DNA of 64,000 nt, taken from NCBI GenBank assembly GCA_015056365.1, contig SVGM01000002.1:124001-188000 (forward strand), written 5' to 3'. The notes below the pieces were generated by a model. The model saw only the letters and a program-made list of their open reading frames with translations. It did no database searches and was not told the DNA's origin. The position numbers and the translations under genes were made by a program. The DNA comes from Clostridiales bacterium. Lineage in GTDB: Bacteria > Bacillota > Clostridia > Christensenellales > Aristaeellaceae. Position 1 is the first letter of the stretch; each line of letters begins with the position of its first letter. This document shows positions 9,414 to 27,182 of the stretch, one piece after another.

Positions 9414-10283
9414 TTACGGGGTTTGGAGGAATTCTTGAATCAGGCGGGTGTTGACAGGCAGATCCGCCTCCAGCACCCACATGTTATTGATCAAAGCGTC
9501 CCGGTACGCGCCGTCAAAGGGCACATGAGCTGTCCGCAGACGAAGGTTGGAGCCGTTGGTAACCAGCGGAGCGAGCGCTCTGATATCGCCCAGGGTCAGG
9601 TCTGTATCCAGCTTGCCAAGATTGGTGATGGCAAGCCCCATCAGGCGGAAGAGATCCAGCGTGGTCAGCTGCCGAAGGATGCCCAGCAGCACCTGCTGCT
9701 GCCGTCCGGTGCGGCCAAAGTCGCTGTCCAGGCTGCGGATACGGCTGAAACTCAGCGCCTGAACGCCGCTGAGGCGTACCAGTCCGCTTTCTTCCAACAG
9801 GCCGTCCATCTCCGGGATTCCCATGTGCTGATTATACCTGACCAGATTGTCGTTCAGCTCCCGGAGTTCTTCCTTGGTGATCTCCACTTCGATGCCGCCG
9901 ATCTGATCGATCATATTGGCCATCTCGGAAAAATTCACCGCCGCGGTACGGTCAATCCGCACGTGAAAATTTTCCTCCAGCGTTCGTTTCAAAAGCTCCG
10001 CGCCGCCGTACACATAGGCGGCATTCAGCCTTGTCCTGCCATGGCCGGGGATGGACACATACAGATCCCTGAGAAAGGAAATCAGCTTCACATCGCCGGT
10101 GGACGGAGTGATCTGCGCCAGCATCATGGCGTCGCTGCGGCCGGTTTCCTCCGCATCATAGGCGTCCAGACCAATGAGCAAAAGATTGAAAGTTTCTGCG
10201 TCCTCTGCCGCAGCGCCGGAAGCGCCTGTAAGGCAGCATGCCATCAGCAGCAGCGCAATGATCCTCCTCAATGTGCGGTTCAT
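9414..10283 (-). CDS. LytR-CpsA-Psr (LCP) family cell-wall glycopolymer ligase
   Basis: 289 residues. LCP enzymes move teichoic acid or polysaccharide from a polyprenyl carrier to peptidoglycan outside the membrane. An N-terminal hydrophobic segment (residues 8-25) is an anchor or signal; LMAC at 13-16 could act as a lipobox. Conserved charged residues fit the family: Arg49/Asp51 (GRSDAMML), Arg72/Asp73 (FLRDLYVSIPG), Arg83/Arg85, and later FSRIRSLDSDFGRTGRQQQVL. Start ATG 10283 has AGGAGGGG upstream; the in-frame extension lacks one. Confidence 0.93.
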   Translation of the reverse strand: MNRTLRRIIALLLMACCLTGASGAAAEDAETFNLLLIGLDAYDAEETGRSDAMMLAQITPSTGDVKLISFLRDLYVSIPGHGRTRLNAAYVYGGAELLKRTLEENFHVRIDRTAAVNFSEMANMIDQIGGIEVEITKEELRELNDNLVRYNQHMGIPEMDGLLEESGLVRLSGVQALSFSRIRSLDSDFGRTGRQQQVLLGILRQLTTLDLFRLMGLAITNLGKLDTDLTLGDIRALAPLVTNGSNLRLRTAHVPFDGAYRDALINNMWVLEADLPVNTRLIQEFLQTP

Positions 10284-21406: not shown

Positions 21407-22048
21407 ATGACCCAGACCACTACCGAAACCAAGAAAAAGGGCTTTTCTCTTGCCAGCCTGATGGCGATCCTGCTGTTGGTTGCCGTTGTGCTCGCTGTTT
21501 TCGGCTTTATGGGCAAGAATGACGCGCTCAAGGCCAATACCGATCTGACCGCTCAGGTGGAAGAACTGACCACCAATCTGGACACTGCCAACGGCACCAT
21601 CGAAACCCTGACCGCCGATCTGGAAACTGCCAACGGCAGCCTGACCACCCTCACTGCTGATCTGGAGACCGCCCAGGGCACCATCGATACCCTGACTGCC
21701 AATCTGGAGACCGCTCAGGGCACCATCGATACCCTGACTGCTGATCTGGAAACCGCCAATGGCGCCGTCGACACCCTGACTGCTGATCTGGAAACCGCCA
21801 ATGGCGCCGTCGACACCCTGACCGCTGATCTGGAAACTGCTCAGGGCACCATCGATACCCTGACCGCCGATCTGGAAACTGCCAACGGCAGCCTGACCAC
21901 CCTGACCGCCGATCTGGAAACTGCCAACGGCGCCGTCGATACCCTGACCGCCGATCTGGAAACTGCCAACGAAACCATCACCCTCCTGCAGGAGGAGCTG
22001 GATGCTCTCAAGGATGCACCTGCTGCTGTGCCTGCTGCCAATCCGTAA
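21407..22048 (+). CDS. Membrane-anchored coiled-coil protein of 14-residue repeats
   Basis: 213 residues, no recognised family. A basic N-terminus (KKKG) and one membrane helix (about 14-36) are followed by nine contiguous 14-residue units (residues 67-192) of the type TLTADLETANGxxx, plus a degenerate unit before them. Hydrophobic residues fall at L2, L6, A9 and I/V13 of each unit, an exact 4-3 spacing, so each unit is two heptads of a coiled coil. The tail ends with an Ala/Pro-rich stretch. It probably projects about 19 nm from the membrane (inference). It has its own promoter and terminator. Confidence 0.8.
   Translation: MTQTTTETKKKGFSLASLMAILLLVAVVLAVFGFMGKNDALKANTDLTAQVEELTTNLDTANGTIETLTADLETANGSLTTLTADLETAQGTIDTLTANLETAQGTIDTLTADLETANGAVDTLTADLETANGAVDTLTADLETAQGTIDTLTADLETANGSLTTLTADLETANGAVDTLTADLETANETITLLQEELDALKDAPAAVPAANP
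21605..21982 (+). repeat. Nine tandem 42-bp repeats inside the coiled-coil gene
   Basis: Exact 42-base periodicity, nine units. The variable last three codons take only a few forms (SLT, TID, AVD), with neighbouring units sharing the same form, as expected from unequal recombination. The last unit diverges. Confidence 0.9.
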
Positions 22049-22061
22049 GATTTCCTTACTT

Positions 22062-22105
22062 TGCAAAAAACACGCTCCGCTGTGATGGCGGGGCGTGTTT
22101 TTGCA
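22062..22105 (+). terminator. Rho-independent terminator
   Basis: TGCAAAAAACACGC pairs with GCGTGTTTTTGCA, with CCGC/GCGG extending the stem. It closes the coiled-coil gene. Confidence 0.85.
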
Positions 22106-22136
22106 CGGGATGCATCATATTCAGGAGAAAAACAGC

Positions 22137-23042
22137 ATGGAAAAACGCACCCTTCGCCACACAGACCTATCCGTATCAAAGCTGTGCATGGGAACCGCAA
22201 ACTTCGGCGTCACCCTTGACCGGCATCAGGTCAACGCTCATCTGGACCGTTTCCTGGAACACGGCGGAAACTTTCTGGATACTGCCCATGTATACAGCGA
22301 CTGGATCCCAGGCGAAAAAAGCCGTTCCGAAAAAATGATCGGGCATTGGCTGAAACATAACAGGCGCTCGGATGTGATCCTATGTACCAAGGGCGGACAT
22401 TATGACTTTGCAGCGCCGGACGTATGCAGGGTCACCCCCGATCAGCTGACTCTGGATCTGGCCGAAAGCCTTGATTTTCTGCAAACAGACTATATTGATC
22501 TCTATATGCTGCACCGCGACAATCCCGCCATGCCGGTCAGCGAGATCATTGATTGTCTGGACGGCTTCGTACAAAGCGGCCGTGTGCGCTATCTGGCCTG
22601 TTCCAACTGGAGCGCCAGCCGTACGGCCGAGGCAAACACCTATGCGAAGCAAACCGGCAAGCACGGCTTTGTGGTCAACGAACTCATGTGGAGCATGGCC
22701 AAGATCAACCAGGACGCGCTTCCGCCCGCGTATGTAGCGATGAGTGATGAAATGATGCAGCTGGGACAGGAAACCGGTCTGAATTTCATGTGCTTCTCCG
22801 CACTGGCCAAGGGCTACTTCACCCGCCGCTATGCAGGCAAACCGCTGTCCGACGAATTGCACCGTACCTACGACAACGCCTGCAACGATCGGCAATTTCA
22901 AGCACTGTGCAAGCTAAAAAGCAGCCAACAAGTCACCCGCCGATGCCTCCGCTATTTCGACCAGCAGGAGGTCACCGCGATCCCTATCGTATCCTTCTCC
23001 AGCATGGATCAGCTAATGGAATGCATACAAGCTTTTGAATAA
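22137..23042 (+). CDS. Aldo/keto reductase
   Basis: 301 residues. NADPH-dependent carbonyl reductase of the (beta/alpha)8 fold. The catalytic tetrad is visible: Asp48 and Tyr53 (FLDTAHVYSDW), Lys85 (CTKGG) and His126 (YMLHRDNP). The substrate is unknown. ATG 22137 follows AGGAGA; an in-frame ATG upstream overlaps the preceding terminator. A GC-rich hairpin follows the stop. Confidence 0.9.
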   Translation: MEKRTLRHTDLSVSKLCMGTANFGVTLDRHQVNAHLDRFLEHGGNFLDTAHVYSDWIPGEKSRSEKMIGHWLKHNRRSDVILCTKGGHYDFAAPDVCRVTPDQLTLDLAESLDFLQTDYIDLYMLHRDNPAMPVSEIIDCLDGFVQSGRVRYLACSNWSASRTAEANTYAKQTGKHGFVVNELMWSMAKINQDALPPAYVAMSDEMMQLGQETGLNFMCFSALAKGYFTRRYAGKPLSDELHRTYDNACNDRQFQALCKLKSSQQVTRRCLRYFDQQEVTAIPIVSFSSMDQLMECIQAFE

Positions 23043-23091: not shown

Positions 23092-23131
23092 TTGTGGCTG
23101 CGTTCTCTTTCCCTTGTTTGAATCAAAAAAA

Positions 23132-23225
23132 GAAAGCCTTGATTCTTCAAGGCTTTCTTAAGTGGTAGCGGCGATCGGATTCGAACCAATGACACTCCGG
23201 GTATGAAGCGGGCTGCGCCCGCTTC
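23132..23225 (-). repeat. tRNA-Met 3'-half copy with terminator and hairpin (att-like, distal)
   Basis: Bases 23163-23207 repeat exactly the last 45 nt of tRNA-Met (27025-27069), from the anticodon loop through CCA. To its left, 23132-23157 repeats the same terminator stem found beyond the real tRNA. To its right the 5' half of a tRNA is absent; instead a perfect hairpin GAAGCGGGC-TGC-GCCCGCTTC (23205-23225) begins within the last bases of the copy. The copied segment fits the attB site used by many tRNA-targeting integrases. Confidence 0.75.
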
Positions 23226-23294
23226 GGGAAGGCTTATTACACAACAAAAAACGTGAAATGTGGCTGTGGTTTTGGGTGGCGGAATCAAATCAGT

Positions 23295-24122
23295 TCATAA
23301 AAAGCGCTTCAGGCTTTCCAAAACGCTCAGCATGTGATACTTGATCAGAAAAGCAGCGTTGTAATACTGGGGATACCGTTCTTTGATATCTACCAATAGC
23401 GGAAGTACAAACTGTTCCGTTTCCTGAATGTACTCAACCATTCTTTCCTTTTCAAATCCGTTTGCCATGGAAGAGATGTTATTGCAGCGATCCAATACCT
23501 TTATGATTGCAGCAAGTGGATTTTCACGGATTATGCTGTAATAGCGCTGCTTTGCCGCCTCTTTTGATTCACCCATTCCAATTCTGAAGGAGAGCAACGA
23601 TACGATTTTCTGAACGGTTTTGCTTACCGGAAGCTGTTCAGGGGAGACACTGCAATCTTCTACCACATCATGAAGCAGAGCTGCAGCCAGCAGTTCATCA
23701 TCGTCCAAACCCATGGCCAAGGCGTGACAGGTGATCATCAACGGATGGATCATATAGGGTACTTCTTCTATCCCCTTTCGCTTCTGTCCCTTATGCATCT
23801 GAGAGGCAAAGGAAAGCGCCCTCGCTGTCTGCATCAGTTGCTTTGCATTAGCAGCCGCTCTCACCTGCGTATACATCCGCTCCACATCAAAGAATCTTAC
23901 AGTTCCTCCGTTGGGAAAAGAGGTTTCTTTCTCTCCCAGCAAGAATCCAACTGAGGTTTTCAGGCATTCTGCCAGCCTGATCATCTTTTCTGTATCGGGT
24001 AGATAATCATCCCGTTCCCAGCCGCTCACGGCCTGAAAAGAGACCCTCATCCGTTCTGCAAGCTGCGTTTGAGACAAATGCTGTGCTTTTCTGCTGGCCG
24101 CAATTCTTTCACCAATCGTCAC
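23295..24122 (-). CDS. XRE-family HTH fused to RelA/SpoT-type HD hydrolase domain
   Basis: 275 residues from a GTG start that has GGAGG upstream; longer in-frame starts run into the promoter. Residues 3-58 form an XRE helix-turn-helix (LSQTQLAERMRVSFQAVSGWERD). Residues ~90-240 carry the (p)ppGpp hydrolase HD motifs: His110 (FASQMHKGQKRKG), His126 (YMIHP), His151-Asp152 (LLHDVVED) and K208-x-x-D211-R-x-x-N215. All look intact, so an alarmone hydrolase under or with DNA binding is predicted. No synthetase domain is present. It is visibly richer in A+T than its neighbours and lies between two tRNA-Met 3'-half copies, so it was probably acquired. Confidence 0.82.
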   Translation of the reverse strand: MTIGERIAASRKAQHLSQTQLAERMRVSFQAVSGWERDDYLPDTEKMIRLAECLKTSVGFLLGEKETSFPNGGTVRFFDVERMYTQVRAAANAKQLMQTARALSFASQMHKGQKRKGIEEVPYMIHPLMITCHALAMGLDDDELLAAALLHDVVEDCSVSPEQLPVSKTVQKIVSLLSFRIGMGESKEAAKQRYYSIIRENPLAAIIKVLDRCNNISSMANGFEKERMVEYIQETEQFVLPLLVDIKERYPQYYNAAFLIKYHMLSVLESLKRFL

Positions 24123-24158
24123 GACCTCACCCTCCGTTTCATTCTTATATGCATGTTG

Positions 24159-24187
24159 ATTATATAGCCAAAGCACTGTTTGTGCAA
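24159..24187 (-). promoter_or_regulatory. Promoter for the XRE-HD gene
   Basis: On the minus strand, TTGCAC (24182-24187), 17 bases, TATAAT (24159-24164), 37 bases before the GTG start. Confidence 0.75.
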
Positions 24188-24211
24188 ACAAGTGGCACAG
24201 GAATCTAGGAT

Positions 24212-24241
24212 GACTTTTTTCAAGTATTGCTTGAAAAAGTC
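24212..24241. promoter_or_regulatory. Large palindrome upstream of the XRE-HD gene
   Basis: GACTTTTTTCAAG-TATTG-CTTGAAAAAGTC inverted repeat about 25 bases upstream of the -35 box. It could be an operator for the encoded HTH or the end of a mobile unit. Confidence 0.4.
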
Positions 24242-24270
24242 AAATGATTTTGCGCGAATAACAAAAAAGA

Positions 24271-24360
24271 ACACCCTGATTTCTCAAGGTGTTTTTGATG
24301 GTAGCGGCGATCGGATTCGAACCAATGACACTCCGGGTATGAAGCGGCCTTTGGCCGCTT
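24271..24360 (-). repeat. tRNA-Met 3'-half copy with terminator and hairpin (att-like, internal)
   Basis: Bases 24299-24343 are a second exact 45-nt copy of the tRNA-Met 3' half. On its left is a terminator-like stem (ACACC...GGTGT, 24271-24292) of different sequence from the tRNA's own; on its right is the hairpin AAGCGGCC-TTT-GGCCGCTT (24342-24360). The layout matches the copy at 23.2 kb. Confidence 0.75.
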
Positions 24361-24383
24361 GGGAAAACTGCAAAAACTCATTA

Positions 24384-24414
24384 GAAAAGGCCCACCGCAG
24401 CAGTGCGGCAGGCC
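24384..24414 (-). terminator. Terminator after the membrane hydrolase gene
   Basis: On the minus strand, GGCCTGCCGCA / TGCGGTGGGCC stem followed by TTTTCT. Confidence 0.8.
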
Positions 24415-24466
24415 CTGAGTTCTCATCTGGCTGGGAAAGCTGAAGCCAAGCCATGCCGGATGATTT

Positions 24467-26500
24467 TTACTTGAAGGCGACCATGGTGTTGGCGATGGTC
24501 ATGACAGTCATCAGAACAGCGTTGAGGAACGCGGGGGTCCAGATGTTGCCGGTCTTCTTGTACAGATTGCGGGAGATGATCGCAGCAATGGACAGCGTAG
24601 GCACCATTGCAACCATCATGATGCCGCTCAACGCAGAACCAGGATTGGCAGCCACACCGGTAGCAAACAGAGTGCCGTACTGGCAAATCAGCCACAGCAG
24701 GGGACCGCCGGCATTGAGCACCATGGCCAGCAGATAGCCTTTGATGCCGGTCTGCTTGTCGGTGTTGGTATTGATGGTGATGGCGGCGGAGGACACGATG
24801 TAGTACAGCAGGAAGGTAGGCAGGTAACGCAGCACCGCAGGCAGGATATTCGCATCAAAGGTCTTGAAGGCGAAAGTCCAGATACGGAAGTCGGCCACGA
24901 ACAGGGCATCCATCAGCCACAGTACAGCGTAGGCGATCACAACGCTCACCAGCGCGGCAAGCAGGCTGGCCACGATAGCCACAGGCTTGAACACCAGACC
25001 ATAGGAGGAGAAGGTAGCGCCTTCCTTGGCCTTGAGAATCAGGAACATCAGACCCATGATGGTGGCGGAAATCAGCGCGCATGCCAGCGTCCAGTAGACG
25101 ATGGAGTTGATGCCGATGGCGGTCCACACCGCATTGTCCTGGTACATGGGGGTCTTGGCGACCAGCGCAAGGGCAGCGCCGGTAACGACGGTCACGATAC
25201 CGCCCACAAGGCTCTTCTTGCAGCACTTCTTCACGAGGAAGGCAATGATGGCGGCGACGCCCACAGCAGCGGCCGCGATGCCGGCGTAGAACAGGATGTT
25301 GACCGTGGTGGTGCCCGCGCCTTCATCCATCAGAGGCGTGAAGAAGATGGCAGGCAGCAGCACTGCGATGGTCAGCACCACGATGGTGATGATCTTTGCC
25401 TTGCCCTTCGCGCCTGCAGCGGGGGTCAGCGTACCGGTCTTGGCCTTGTTGAAGAAGGGCAACTCCAACACGATGGAGGCTACGGCGATGATCAGCATCA
25501 CAAAGCCGACCAGAGCCACGCACTCGGCGATCTCCTTCCACAGCCACACCTGCTGATCGGCAGGGATGGCGGTGATGCCGGCCTGATAATCCTTGAACGC
25601 CTCGGTGTAGAACTCGATAGCATAACCGGTGGTGGTGGTGGAGAAGTGGTTCCAGGGATGGGTCTCAGCAGGCTGATAGATGATGCGCTTGCCGCCATCG
25701 CTGGTTTCGTACCAGGTATTGGCCTGCGCAGGCTCGGTCTGCTGCAGGAAGGTCATGCCGTCAGGAGTGGATACATAGTCTTTGTGGCGCACGGTGCCGC
25801 CCTGCTCGGCGGGATCGTTGAAGAAGAACTCGTCGTACTGGGCAGCGACCTTTCCCAGCACGCGCCCGCCGCTGAGAGACTCAGCCGTGGCAGCATCGAA
25901 GCCTACAAAGGCGGTATACATGAAGTCGGAGCCTTCGGTCAGGCTGCAGTAGATCTTGCGGATGCCGGTAGCGGCAGCATCCAGCTCATCACGGGCGATG
26001 GCAGTGGTGGAGCCGAAGCCGCCCATGGAGTGACCAGTCACGCCGATGATGCCGTTGCCGGCCTCATCCTTAAGCACGTAGGGCTGCTCATACATGTAGG
26101 CCACAGCGTCGTACATGGAGTTGTACCAGAAGGGCAGCCATACGCCGAAGAACGAGGCGTCGGAGTAGACTTCGTCGTTGATGTCGGAGTGACCGTGATC
26201 GTACTGGTCCAGAGCCAGCACCACGTAGCCGCGGCGGCTGAGCTCGATGGCGTTGGCATCCTGCATCTCAGCGGAGTTCAGATAGCCATGGGTGACGATG
26301 ACGGTGGGCTTGGGATTGCTTTCGGACGCATCCTTGGGCATATAGAGCAGGCCGCTCAAATTGCCGTTGGCGGTGTCGAAGTTGATGCGGGAAACCTTCA
26401 CGCCATTACTGCCATTGATTGCACAGGCCACGATGCTGCCGACGAGCACGATGACCAATGCGATACAAAGCAGTACGAGGGAACGCTTGCAGTTTTTCAT
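24467..26500 (-). CDS. Alpha/beta hydrolase with C-terminal polytopic membrane domain
   Basis: 677 residues, no named function. An N-terminal helix (8-28) anchors an alpha/beta-hydrolase domain (about 45-335) that should face outward, with HG at 71-72 and the nucleophile elbow GHSMGG (Ser158). About nine hydrophobic helices follow (about 350-677). The start ATG 26500 follows AGGAGG. It is GC-rich like the host. It has its own promoter and terminator, and lies between tRNA-Met and a copy of the tRNA 3' half, so it may be island cargo. A lipid or peptidoglycan-precursor substrate is possible but not shown. Confidence 0.8.
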   Translation of the reverse strand: MKNCKRSLVLLCIALVIVLVGSIVACAINGSNGVKVSRINFDTANGNLSGLLYMPKDASESNPKPTVIVTHGYLNSAEMQDANAIELSRRGYVVLALDQYDHGHSDINDEVYSDASFFGVWLPFWYNSMYDAVAYMYEQPYVLKDEAGNGIIGVTGHSMGGFGSTTAIARDELDAAATGIRKIYCSLTEGSDFMYTAFVGFDAATAESLSGGRVLGKVAAQYDEFFFNDPAEQGGTVRHKDYVSTPDGMTFLQQTEPAQANTWYETSDGGKRIIYQPAETHPWNHFSTTTTGYAIEFYTEAFKDYQAGITAIPADQQVWLWKEIAECVALVGFVMLIIAVASIVLELPFFNKAKTGTLTPAAGAKGKAKIITIVVLTIAVLLPAIFFTPLMDEGAGTTTVNILFYAGIAAAAVGVAAIIAFLVKKCCKKSLVGGIVTVVTGAALALVAKTPMYQDNAVWTAIGINSIVYWTLACALISATIMGLMFLILKAKEGATFSSYGLVFKPVAIVASLLAALVSVVIAYAVLWLMDALFVADFRIWTFAFKTFDANILPAVLRYLPTFLLYYIVSSAAITINTNTDKQTGIKGYLLAMVLNAGGPLLWLICQYGTLFATGVAANPGSALSGIMMVAMVPTLSIAAIISRNLYKKTGNIWTPAFLNAVLMTVMTIANTMVAFK

Positions 26501-26551
26501 TAGTAATTCCTCCTTCGTAATTTTGTTGTGCGCAGAAAAAGTGTTATAGTA

Positions 26552-26580
26552 ATTATACAGCAAAAGAAGGGAACCAGCAA
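26552..26580 (-). promoter_or_regulatory. Promoter for the membrane hydrolase gene
   Basis: On the minus strand, TTGCTG (26575-26580), 17 bases, TATAAT (26552-26557), about 50 bases before the start codon. Confidence 0.65.
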
Positions 26581-26599
26581 TCGTCAAATGCAAACGATG

Positions 26600-26856
26600 T
26601 CAAAAAAAGTTCAGATACCCTACGAAGCTCGATACCGCAATTTGGGGCGGTATTTCAACCAGCATGTGTATATGATCTGCACATATCTCTGCCTCGAAAT
26701 ATTCACCTTTTTCCATTTGCACAATTGCCTCAAGATTTTTCCTATCTCTCTTTTCTTCTCTCCAAAGAATGCCTTTCTATGGTACTTGGGCGCAAATACT
26801 ATGTGATATTTACAATTCTATTTCGTATATGATAAACTGTGCACGTCATTAGGCAT
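26600..26856 (-). pseudogene. Decayed IS200/IS605-type transposase (tnpA) fragment
   Basis: Translation of the minus strand from ATG 26856 (GGAGG upstream) gives MPNDVHSLSYTK, an in-frame TAG, then NCKYHIVFAPKYHRKAFF and ILRQLCKWKKVNI. After a frameshift it continues EAEICADHIHMLVEIPPQ and IAVSSFVGYL, and then ends early. These are the N-terminal two thirds of an IS200-type HUH transposase, with the His-x-His pair in DHIHML. The C-terminal part with the catalytic Tyr is missing. The stretch is AT-rich. Confidence 0.88.
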
Positions 26857-26955
26857 ATTCTTTTGACCTCCTTTTGCTTTTGGTGCAGTTGCCAGACCGC
26901 TCCTCTATATAACAAAAGAAGTTTTTTGTGCTTCCCTATCGGTTAGCCTTTCCCG

Positions 26956-26978
26956 AACCACAGGCCAGGCCTGTGGTT
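26956..26978. repeat. Perfect hairpin, possible IS200-type end structure
   Basis: AACCACAGGCC-A-GGCCTGTGGTT, an 11-bp perfect stem about 100 bases upstream of the tnpA remnant, followed by TTTTACTT. IS200/IS605 elements carry subterminal hairpins at their ends, so this may be the left end. It could also be an ordinary terminator. Confidence 0.45.
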
Positions 26979-26985
26979 TTACTTA

Positions 26986-27020
26986 TACAAAAAAGAAAGC
27001 CTTGATTCTTCAAGGCTTTC
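26986..27020 (-). terminator. Terminator of the tRNA operon
   Basis: GAAAGCCTTGA / TCAAGGCTTTC 11-bp stem with a 4-base loop and six Ts on the minus strand, just after tRNA-Met. The same stem is copied at 23132-23157. Confidence 0.92.
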
Positions 27021-27024
27021 TTGA

Positions 27025-27101
27025 TGGTAGCGGCGATCGGATTCGAACCAATGACACTCCGGGTATGAACCGAATGCTCTAGCCAGCTGAGCTACGCCGC
27101 C
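27025..27101 (-). tRNA. tRNA-Met (CAU), elongator type
   Basis: 77 nt with encoded CCA. Acceptor GGCGGCG pairs with CGCCGCT (one G-U), D-arm GCTC/GAGC, anticodon loop TTCATAC, T-loop TTCGAAT. Position 1 pairs, unlike an initiator. A lysidine-modified tRNA-Ile with CAU anticodon cannot be wholly excluded, but the sequence looks like clostridial elongator tRNA-Met. Its 3' 45 nt are duplicated twice to the left. Confidence 0.9.
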
Positions 27102-27105
27102 ACGA

Positions 27106-27182
<77 letters not shown>

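Follow-up and report, generated by a model that had tools for sequence, protein, structure and literature searches.

Two small integrase-less intervals bounded by tRNA-Met 3' halves, a probable serial array in a Clostridiales genome

Introduction

Integration at tRNA genes is usually pictured as the arrival of large islands that bring their own integrase. Tycheposons carry a complete tRNA at one end of the element. Cis-mobilizable elements (CIMEs) are described as decayed integrative and conjugative elements or integrative and mobilizable elements that accrete at tRNA or gene ends (PMC5704250). The ssrA islands of Dehalococcoides lie in tandem in large numbers, each bounded by a copy of the gene's 3' end; according to PMC3146451, 15 of them lack an integration module, the recombinase is of the serine type, and the 20-bp repeat comes from the tmRNA T-loop. 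KpGI-5 is reported to lie at the met56 tRNA (PMC3419637). Here we describe a locus in a stretch of 64,000 nt (contig SVGM01000002.1, positions 124,001 to 188,000 of the forward strand; hereafter the window) from a Clostridiales genome (G000, assembly 87.9% complete). In it, a tRNA-Met gene is followed by two intervals, E1 and E2, each closed at its outer end by a further copy of the 3' half of that tRNA.

In our reading, E1 and E2 are small elements without an integrase that form a serial array; a tyrosine recombinase acting in trans likely inserted them successively at the anticodon loop of tRNA-Met. We give this reading a probability of about 0.7. The recombinase would pair the anticodon-loop site of tRNA-Met with a matching site on a circular element. 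The incoming element's own 3' half and terminator would rebuild a working tRNA, and the old half would be displaced outward. Each element would have a hairpin at one end, and its other end would bring a 3' half of tRNA-Met together with a terminator. Repeated insertion would give the array seen in the window, and the element nearest the tRNA would be the newest, because each insertion pushes the previous 3' half outward. The recombinase, the order in which the elements arrived, their movement in trans and their mobility in the past are inferred.

The locus resembles CIMEs, as PMC5704250 presents them, in that its units are bounded by attachment sites, lack integration and transfer genes, and are stacked in tandem at one chromosomal site. 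The direct repeats of the target gene end are three exact 45-nt halves, and the frames listed for the two intervals include no integration or conjugation gene, although no search was aimed at conjugation genes. It differs from CIMEs in that the units are only 1.1 and 2.7 kb long with one intact frame each, and in that the family also has pieces behind tRNA-Ala whose ends are conserved while their cargo varies. With the ssrA islands it has in common tandem integrase-less units behind one tRNA-like gene, bounded by 3'-end copies; here, however, the repeat is 45 nt long and starts at the anticodon loop, and the integrases found elsewhere at that border are tyrosine recombinases. Integron cassettes and clusters of attC sites lacking integron-integrases (CALINs) are likewise arrays of small units with a common recombination-site end and no adjoining integrase (PMC11389934), whereas the ends here are tRNA-derived and most tRNA-Ala units begin with a terminator. 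The displaced copies in the window are 45-nt halves and not the complete tRNA of a tycheposon. Stacked integrase-less elements are thus already known; what is new is the one-gene size, together with the tRNA-Ala pieces with conserved ends and varied cargo. No earlier description of these arrays was found in the literature searched, mostly papers available without subscription.

Results and Discussion

The repeat array at tRNA-Met

The components of the array are the following.

27025..27101, minus strand, intact tRNA-Met (CAT), the proposed landing site (ARAGORN, Rfam RF00005; elongator type by reading)
26993..27022, minus strand, terminator A, directly 3' of the intact tRNA, left end of E1 (repeat comparison)
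24344..27024, minus strand, interval E1, 2681 nt, with an IS200-type remnant and a hydrolase gene (repeat borders)
24342..24360, minus strand, outer-end hairpin of E1, a perfect 8-bp stem with a 3-nt loop, sharing 2 nt with the start of the tRNA half
24299..24343, minus strand, displaced tRNA-Met 3' half, copy 2, 45/45 (exact repeat search)
about 24270..24293, minus strand, terminator B, 3' of copy 2, left end of E2; differs from A and A'
23208..24298, minus strand, interval E2, 1091 nt, with a single gene (repeat borders)
23205..23225, minus strand, outer-end hairpin of E2, a perfect stem overlapping the tRNA half
23163..23207, minus strand, displaced tRNA-Met 3' half, copy 3, 45/45 (exact repeat search)
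23130..23159, minus strand, terminator A', 3' of copy 3, with 30-nt identity to A

The 45-nt half extends from the first anticodon-loop base, by reading of the tRNA, to CCA. It is present three times on the minus strand with 0 mismatches (23163-23207, 24299-24343 and, within the intact gene, 27025-27069). A search allowing up to 3 mismatches added no further copy, and 100 dinucleotide shuffles gave none. An earlier note on this DNA had reported exact same-direction repeats of this half with a terminator stem on the same side of each, and both observations hold. A terminator-like stem lies 3' of every copy, and repeat and terminator together form an 86-nt family with 76-100% identity; A and A' are the same over 30 nt and the middle stem differs. 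Terminator A' is presumably the original terminator of the tRNA gene. Terminator B is similar to the tRNA-Met terminators of the sister species G007, G010 and G014, which suggests that E2 may derive from one of them. The left end of E1 may stem from the genome's own species, since A and A' are identical.

A perfect G+C hairpin stands on the 5' side of both displaced copies, where the 5' half of the tRNA is missing. On the coding strand the hairpin of E1 reads TTTTCCC-AAGCGGCC-AAA-GGCCGCTT and that of E2 reads CTTCCCG-AAGCGGGC-GCA-GCCCGCTT, each running into the anticodon CAT. The two outer ends are alike: only 19 of 20,000 random 32-mers from the window reach the alignment score of the E2 end to the E1 end. 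In the 538 kb of this genome's own sequence that was fetched, the bare CCC(R)AAGCGG motif has 6 further occurrences and a loose AAGCGG...CCGCTT pair is found in 3 other places. Motif and hairpin together are found there only at the two half copies, so the possibility that the hairpin end is a common repeat was rejected. The hairpin of E1 is also not an ordinary gene terminator, as another terminator-like stem (by reading) precedes it.

Contents of the intervals

The cargo features are the following.

24467..26503, minus strand, alpha/beta hydrolase, 678 aa, cargo of E1 (PF12146, PF00561; hydrophobic C-terminal part by reading)
about 26614..26880 (also delimited as 26596-26985), minus strand, broken IS200-type TnpA beside the tRNA terminator, in E1 (by reading)
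23295..24122, minus strand, cargo of E2, a 275-aa fusion of an XRE helix-turn-helix (HTH) domain with an HD hydrolase domain of the SpoT/MESH1 type (PF01381, PF13328)
24159..24187, minus strand, sigma-70-like promoter of the E2 gene, TTGCAC, 17 nt, TATAAT (by reading, no promoter scan)

The earlier description of one gene per interval applies to the 1.1-kb E2; the 2.7-kb E1 holds the hydrolase plus the IS200-type TnpA remnant. An STnc490-like Rfam match at 26871-26978 scores under the gathering cutoff, and STnc490 is linked to IS200. A counterpart of the remnant region, 69% identical, lies on another contig of the genome (C12). The IS200-type element was rejected as the mover of the intervals: it is only a remnant, and target duplication is not known for its family. 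The absence of an integrase from both intervals, as first noted, is confirmed by the listing of their frames and by an integrase scan of the window's frames of at least 90 aa.

The protein encoded in E2 matches solved RelA/SpoT and small alarmone hydrolase chains, and its motifs H-x-GQ-x-R, HD..ED and D..N align with the RelA/SpoT HD domain. It is predicted from these alignments to be an alarmone hydrolase of the SpoT/MESH1 type. The G+C content of E2 is 45.6% vs 56.8% for the window. That the XRE-HD gene came from a phage or plasmid was rejected, as 80% coverage was reached in 0 of 10 phage and 0 of 18 plasmid matching records. The HTH part accounts for every one of the 10 phage matches and for most of the 10 listed plasmid rows, and one plasmid row corresponds to the HD part.

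Integrase-bearing elements at the same border

A pattern for detached halves, requiring a non-G before the anticodon loop (that is, a 3' half without its 5' half), matches 60 stretches of viral contigs and 11 stretches of species genomes. A tyrosine integrase lies within the fetched DNA in 58/60 viral and 4/11 genome stretches. In 52 of the 60 viral stretches it is on the same strand and at most 200 nt upstream of the half. The border of the 45-nt repeat is therefore an attachment border used by tyrosine integrases, in line with the earlier note, which had pointed to the use of this tRNA segment by such elements.

Integrase-bearing elements are found at tRNA-Met in related Clostridia as well. 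The 3' part of tRNA-Met was matched in 6 of the 10 genomes reached through detached-half loci. In G314 and G313 the order is intact tRNA-Met, element terminator, integrase, 15.2 and 14.2 kb respectively, and a half tRNA with another terminator. G309 has a 19.7-kb element and a half, followed by a second integrase with a left end as in G313 and G314, and is thus a tandem. The element types at tRNA-Met in these relatives carry their own terminators, as the window does. These elements indicate that serial integration with element-borne terminators occurs at tRNA-Met. G314 has contig coordinates identical to those of G229, a member of the window's family; in the order sample the detached-half pattern is found in 2 of 396 genomes, this one and G229. 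The integrase-bearing tRNA-Met elements L198 and L199, and L200 and L201 (G309 contig C25), are from rumen Clostridiales, and the three of their integrases that were compared are 75-96% identical.

E1 and E2 differ from these elements, and from phages and integrative elements at tRNA-Met generally, in lacking an integrase of their own; they have the same kind of target gene and the direct repeat of the tRNA 3' end from the anticodon loop. They also have the hairpin type of some viral stretches. A perfect stem of the window type (7-10 bp; GCGGGC..GCCCGC beside TTCAT) is present at the junction in 7 of the 60, compared with a mean of 0.37 stems of at least 7 bp and a maximum of 4 in 200 runs with shuffled flanks. 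Two of the seven carry the AAGCGGGC/GCCCGCTT arms seen in E2. An integrase lies upstream on the same strand in all seven, at most 200 nt away in five. The seven flanks are distinct yet similar, and look like one related group with few independent cases. In these stretches (L126, L128, L136, L145, L164, L178 and L182) the hairpin lies between the integrase and the tRNA-Met half, which makes them candidates for the family of the helper.

Distribution in the genus and family

The tRNA-Met half is matched at up to 3 mismatches in 8 of 17 genus genomes, and more than one copy is found solely in the genome of the window; in the 9 without a match the tRNA is possibly diverged or unassembled. In the 7 other same-genus genomes in which the tRNA is readable it is single-copy.

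Both cargo genes are patchy within the family. Of the 308 family genomes, 55 have XRE-HD homologues (E <=1e-25) and 28 have hydrolase homologues (E <=1e-60), this genome counted in each case; at the same thresholds neither gene was found in any of the other 16 genomes of the genus. The nearest hydrolase row of a protein collection is 96% identical, its contig count not being comparable.

Small pieces behind tRNA-Ala(CGC)

When 538 kb surrounding the tRNA genes of G000 were scanned for extra tRNA 3' ends (33 nt, at most 2 mismatches), one further case emerged, at tRNA-Ala(CGC) on contig C18, and a looser look added a 23-nt tRNA-Ser end. The C18 piece (L104 7982-9594) contains a RibD_C gene and a 142-aa frame, followed by a tRNA-Ala 3' part with a different terminator. 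The tRNA-Ala part is matched in 6 of 17 genus genomes, and at that stringency only G000 has two matches. At tRNA-Ala of the same-genus genome G011, two pieces of this kind lie in tandem (L212 8931-10951). The middle copy there has the tRNA-Ala 3' sequence of G000, G001, G010 and G014 and the outer copy the native sequence, a pattern that would be expected if one piece arrived from another host.

The right-end pattern is present in 8 of the 308 family genomes, namely G000 and G011 of this genus and six of genus g47, with up to three per genome. Ends were located by profile, giving 20 intervals between successive ends; L235 7912-10068 was dropped before alignment as chromosomal and two gaps of less than 60 nt were set aside, which left 19 intervals. 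The same terminator type (CCTTCTC...GAGAAGG) starts 15 of the 19, one with a mismatch. It is doubtful whether L238_858, an interval of 2.9 kb that contains an enolase-like frame, is a cassette; the remaining 18 are 333-1704 nt long, several of them in tandem. The 21 right ends have a mean column identity of 88%. The left ends of G000 and G286 are 84% identical over 341 nt, including the 76-nt intact tRNA, and those of G000 and G011 are 73% identical over 157 nt, tRNA excluded. The T-arm is altered in 16 of 18 g47 right ends, so recombination at tRNA-Ala probably takes place closer to the 3' end than it does at tRNA-Met. A tRNA-Ala-like piece lies inside the left end of many units.

The cargo varies between conserved ends. 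Of the ten cargo frames scanned, six match an HTH with a zinc ribbon, an HTH, a phosphoesterase, a methyltransferase, an HNH protein and a PAP2 protein; one weakly matches Cass2, one weakly matches SH3 and two have no match. G288, G286 and G289 have kilobases of upstream flank in common, yet carry different cassettes behind tRNA-Ala.

No integrase was found in the fetched stretches with tRNA-Ala arrays, and three exact patterns of the ends gave 0 matches among viral contigs. The one integrase hit in the fetched tRNA-Ala stretches, in the G001 stretch L213, was set aside: it is a close homologue of the C4 recombinase of G000 (E 6e-181), and tRNA-Ala is single-copy in G001. With regard to the single-strand attC fold of integron cassettes, 5 of the 21 right ends were folded as RNA and none was clearly better than shuffles (z -1.0 to 0.8); no dedicated attC or IntI search accompanied these folds. 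The tRNA-Ala piece family is spread over L104, L212 and L234-L244, in two genera, with conserved ends and unrelated cargo. Upstream of tRNA-Ala in L104, the 5' part of this tRNA (GGGGCATTAGCACAGTTGGTAG or a near match) is also present as a further copy at about 9647-9668, followed within the next 30 nt by a short stem and a CCCC end. Such a copy, a tRNA-like leader, also lies upstream of tRNA-Ala in L213, L215 and L216, making four species of the genus.

The earlier note had taken the intervals for islands or remnants. They are integrase-less pieces bounded by attachment sites, and the word remnants is weakened by the tRNA-Ala pieces, which appear to be a recurring compact design and not the product of decay alone. 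Because these pieces, in the same lineage, keep their ends while the cargo differs, small tRNA-bounded pieces are likely a standing strategy of these bacteria rather than a one-off relic. A broader view is tentative, and on balance we doubt it: tRNA-Met and tRNA-Ala might be two instances, with different ends, of tRNA-based cassette systems in which a recombinase encoded elsewhere captures, stacks and exchanges single genes flanked by tRNA-derived ends, an integron-like platform for gene capture with tRNA genes as its landing pad. If the tRNA-Ala pieces move as units, they would represent an overlooked route of gene exchange in Clostridia, one difficult to detect with tools based on integrases or large islands. 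The conserved ends provide a direct handle for searches, and the half-tRNA sites a simple recombination test.

Evidence weighing against serial integration

Several observations weigh against the reading of E1 and E2 as serially inserted elements. A comparable hairpin is absent in 53 of the 60 viral stretches and in all 11 genome stretches, and the end GCTTCAT on a clostridial tRNA-Met half is found in no other of the 308 family genomes and in no viral contig. The earlier note had proposed a comparison with relatives: no syntenic empty tRNA-Met site was found in stretches of 3-16 kb from 7 same-genus genomes. These stretches show no synteny with the window, and apart from the terminator, the pair of tRNAs and some 90 nt beyond them on the far side they have nothing convincing in common with it. 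In the protein collection, which gives no genomic context, the rows of the XRE-HD protein and of the aldo/keto reductase flanking the array have 26 contigs each and the same longest contig. This suggests that E2 is fixed in the sampled strains and present wherever the reductase flank is, which argues against recent mobility. The G+C content of the hydrolase gene (0.586) is near that of the window (0.568). The identity of A and A' is a further difficulty, as a foreign E1 need not give identical terminators. tRNA-Met-like pieces inside E1 and E2 score no higher than the best of 100 shuffles, so that both lack the internal tRNA-like piece of many tRNA-Ala units; the two systems may differ and need not share one enzyme.

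Finally, none of the three Phage_integrase genes of G000 is at tRNA-Met, and we therefore assume a helper, either one acting in trans or one from the past. By reading of the neighbouring frames, one is near lexA, one belongs to an 8-kb element at tRNA-Ser, and one is near a serine recombinase. The element at tRNA-Ser(CGA) (L084 14-8352, contig C10) is an ordinary integrase-bearing one, with a 23-nt repeat of the tRNA 3' end at its far end.

Alternative explanations

The alternative that survives best, although we consider it unlikely, is that E1 and E2 are what is left of two prophages or integrative elements that lost their integrase and most genes, leaving one-gene stubs bounded by attachment sites, which would be CIMEs that arose through deletion and accretion. 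PMC5704250 describes how decayed elements accrete in tandem at the 3' ends of tRNA genes. The IS200-type remnant in E1, the integrase-bearing elements at the same tRNA-Met site in the family and the presence of the hairpin type beside viral integrases agree with such an origin. The sequence that the window has in common with the relatives' stretches is the tRNA and terminator, and the hairpin type is that of 7 of the 60 viral stretches, integrase-bearing ones. Decay accounts less well for E2, which is compact, with a promoter-like site, one gene and both ends in 1.1 kb. Moreover, deletion alone does not predict that the tRNA-Ala pieces keep both ends with differing cargo.

Tandem duplication or illegitimate recombination could have copied the 3' half and terminator nearby without a site-specific recombinase. 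The copies do have the same direction and adjoin the intact gene, and A and A' are identical, but this origin is improbable: the exact anticodon-loop border is that of the integrase-bearing elements and of the 60 viral stretches, a 6.5-kb repeat scan found no long similarity between the two intervals, and no other genome of the genus yielded the cargo genes at the thresholds used.

It is very improbable that hairpin, half tRNA and terminator persist because they serve as a signal for regulating or processing the two mRNAs at their 3' ends: each cargo gene points towards them and the folds beat shuffles (z -6.3 and -4.4, mostly due to hairpin and terminator), but the hydrolase gene has its own terminator-like stem ahead of the hairpin (about 24389-24420, by reading), the missing acceptor 5' strand makes a full tRNA fold impossible, and the tRNA motif is found near 0 of 29 XRE-HD relatives (30 loci fetched with flanks up to 1.5 kb, own one excluded).

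Neighbouring features

Outside the array the window contains the following.

27106..27182, minus strand, second tRNA-Met (CAT), upstream of the first (ARAGORN)
22095..23042, plus strand, flanking aldo/keto reductase (PF00248)

Pairs of tRNA-Met genes are present in relatives too (L198, L199). At 21407-22048 the window encodes a 213-aa coiled-coil protein built from repeated LTADLETAxG units.

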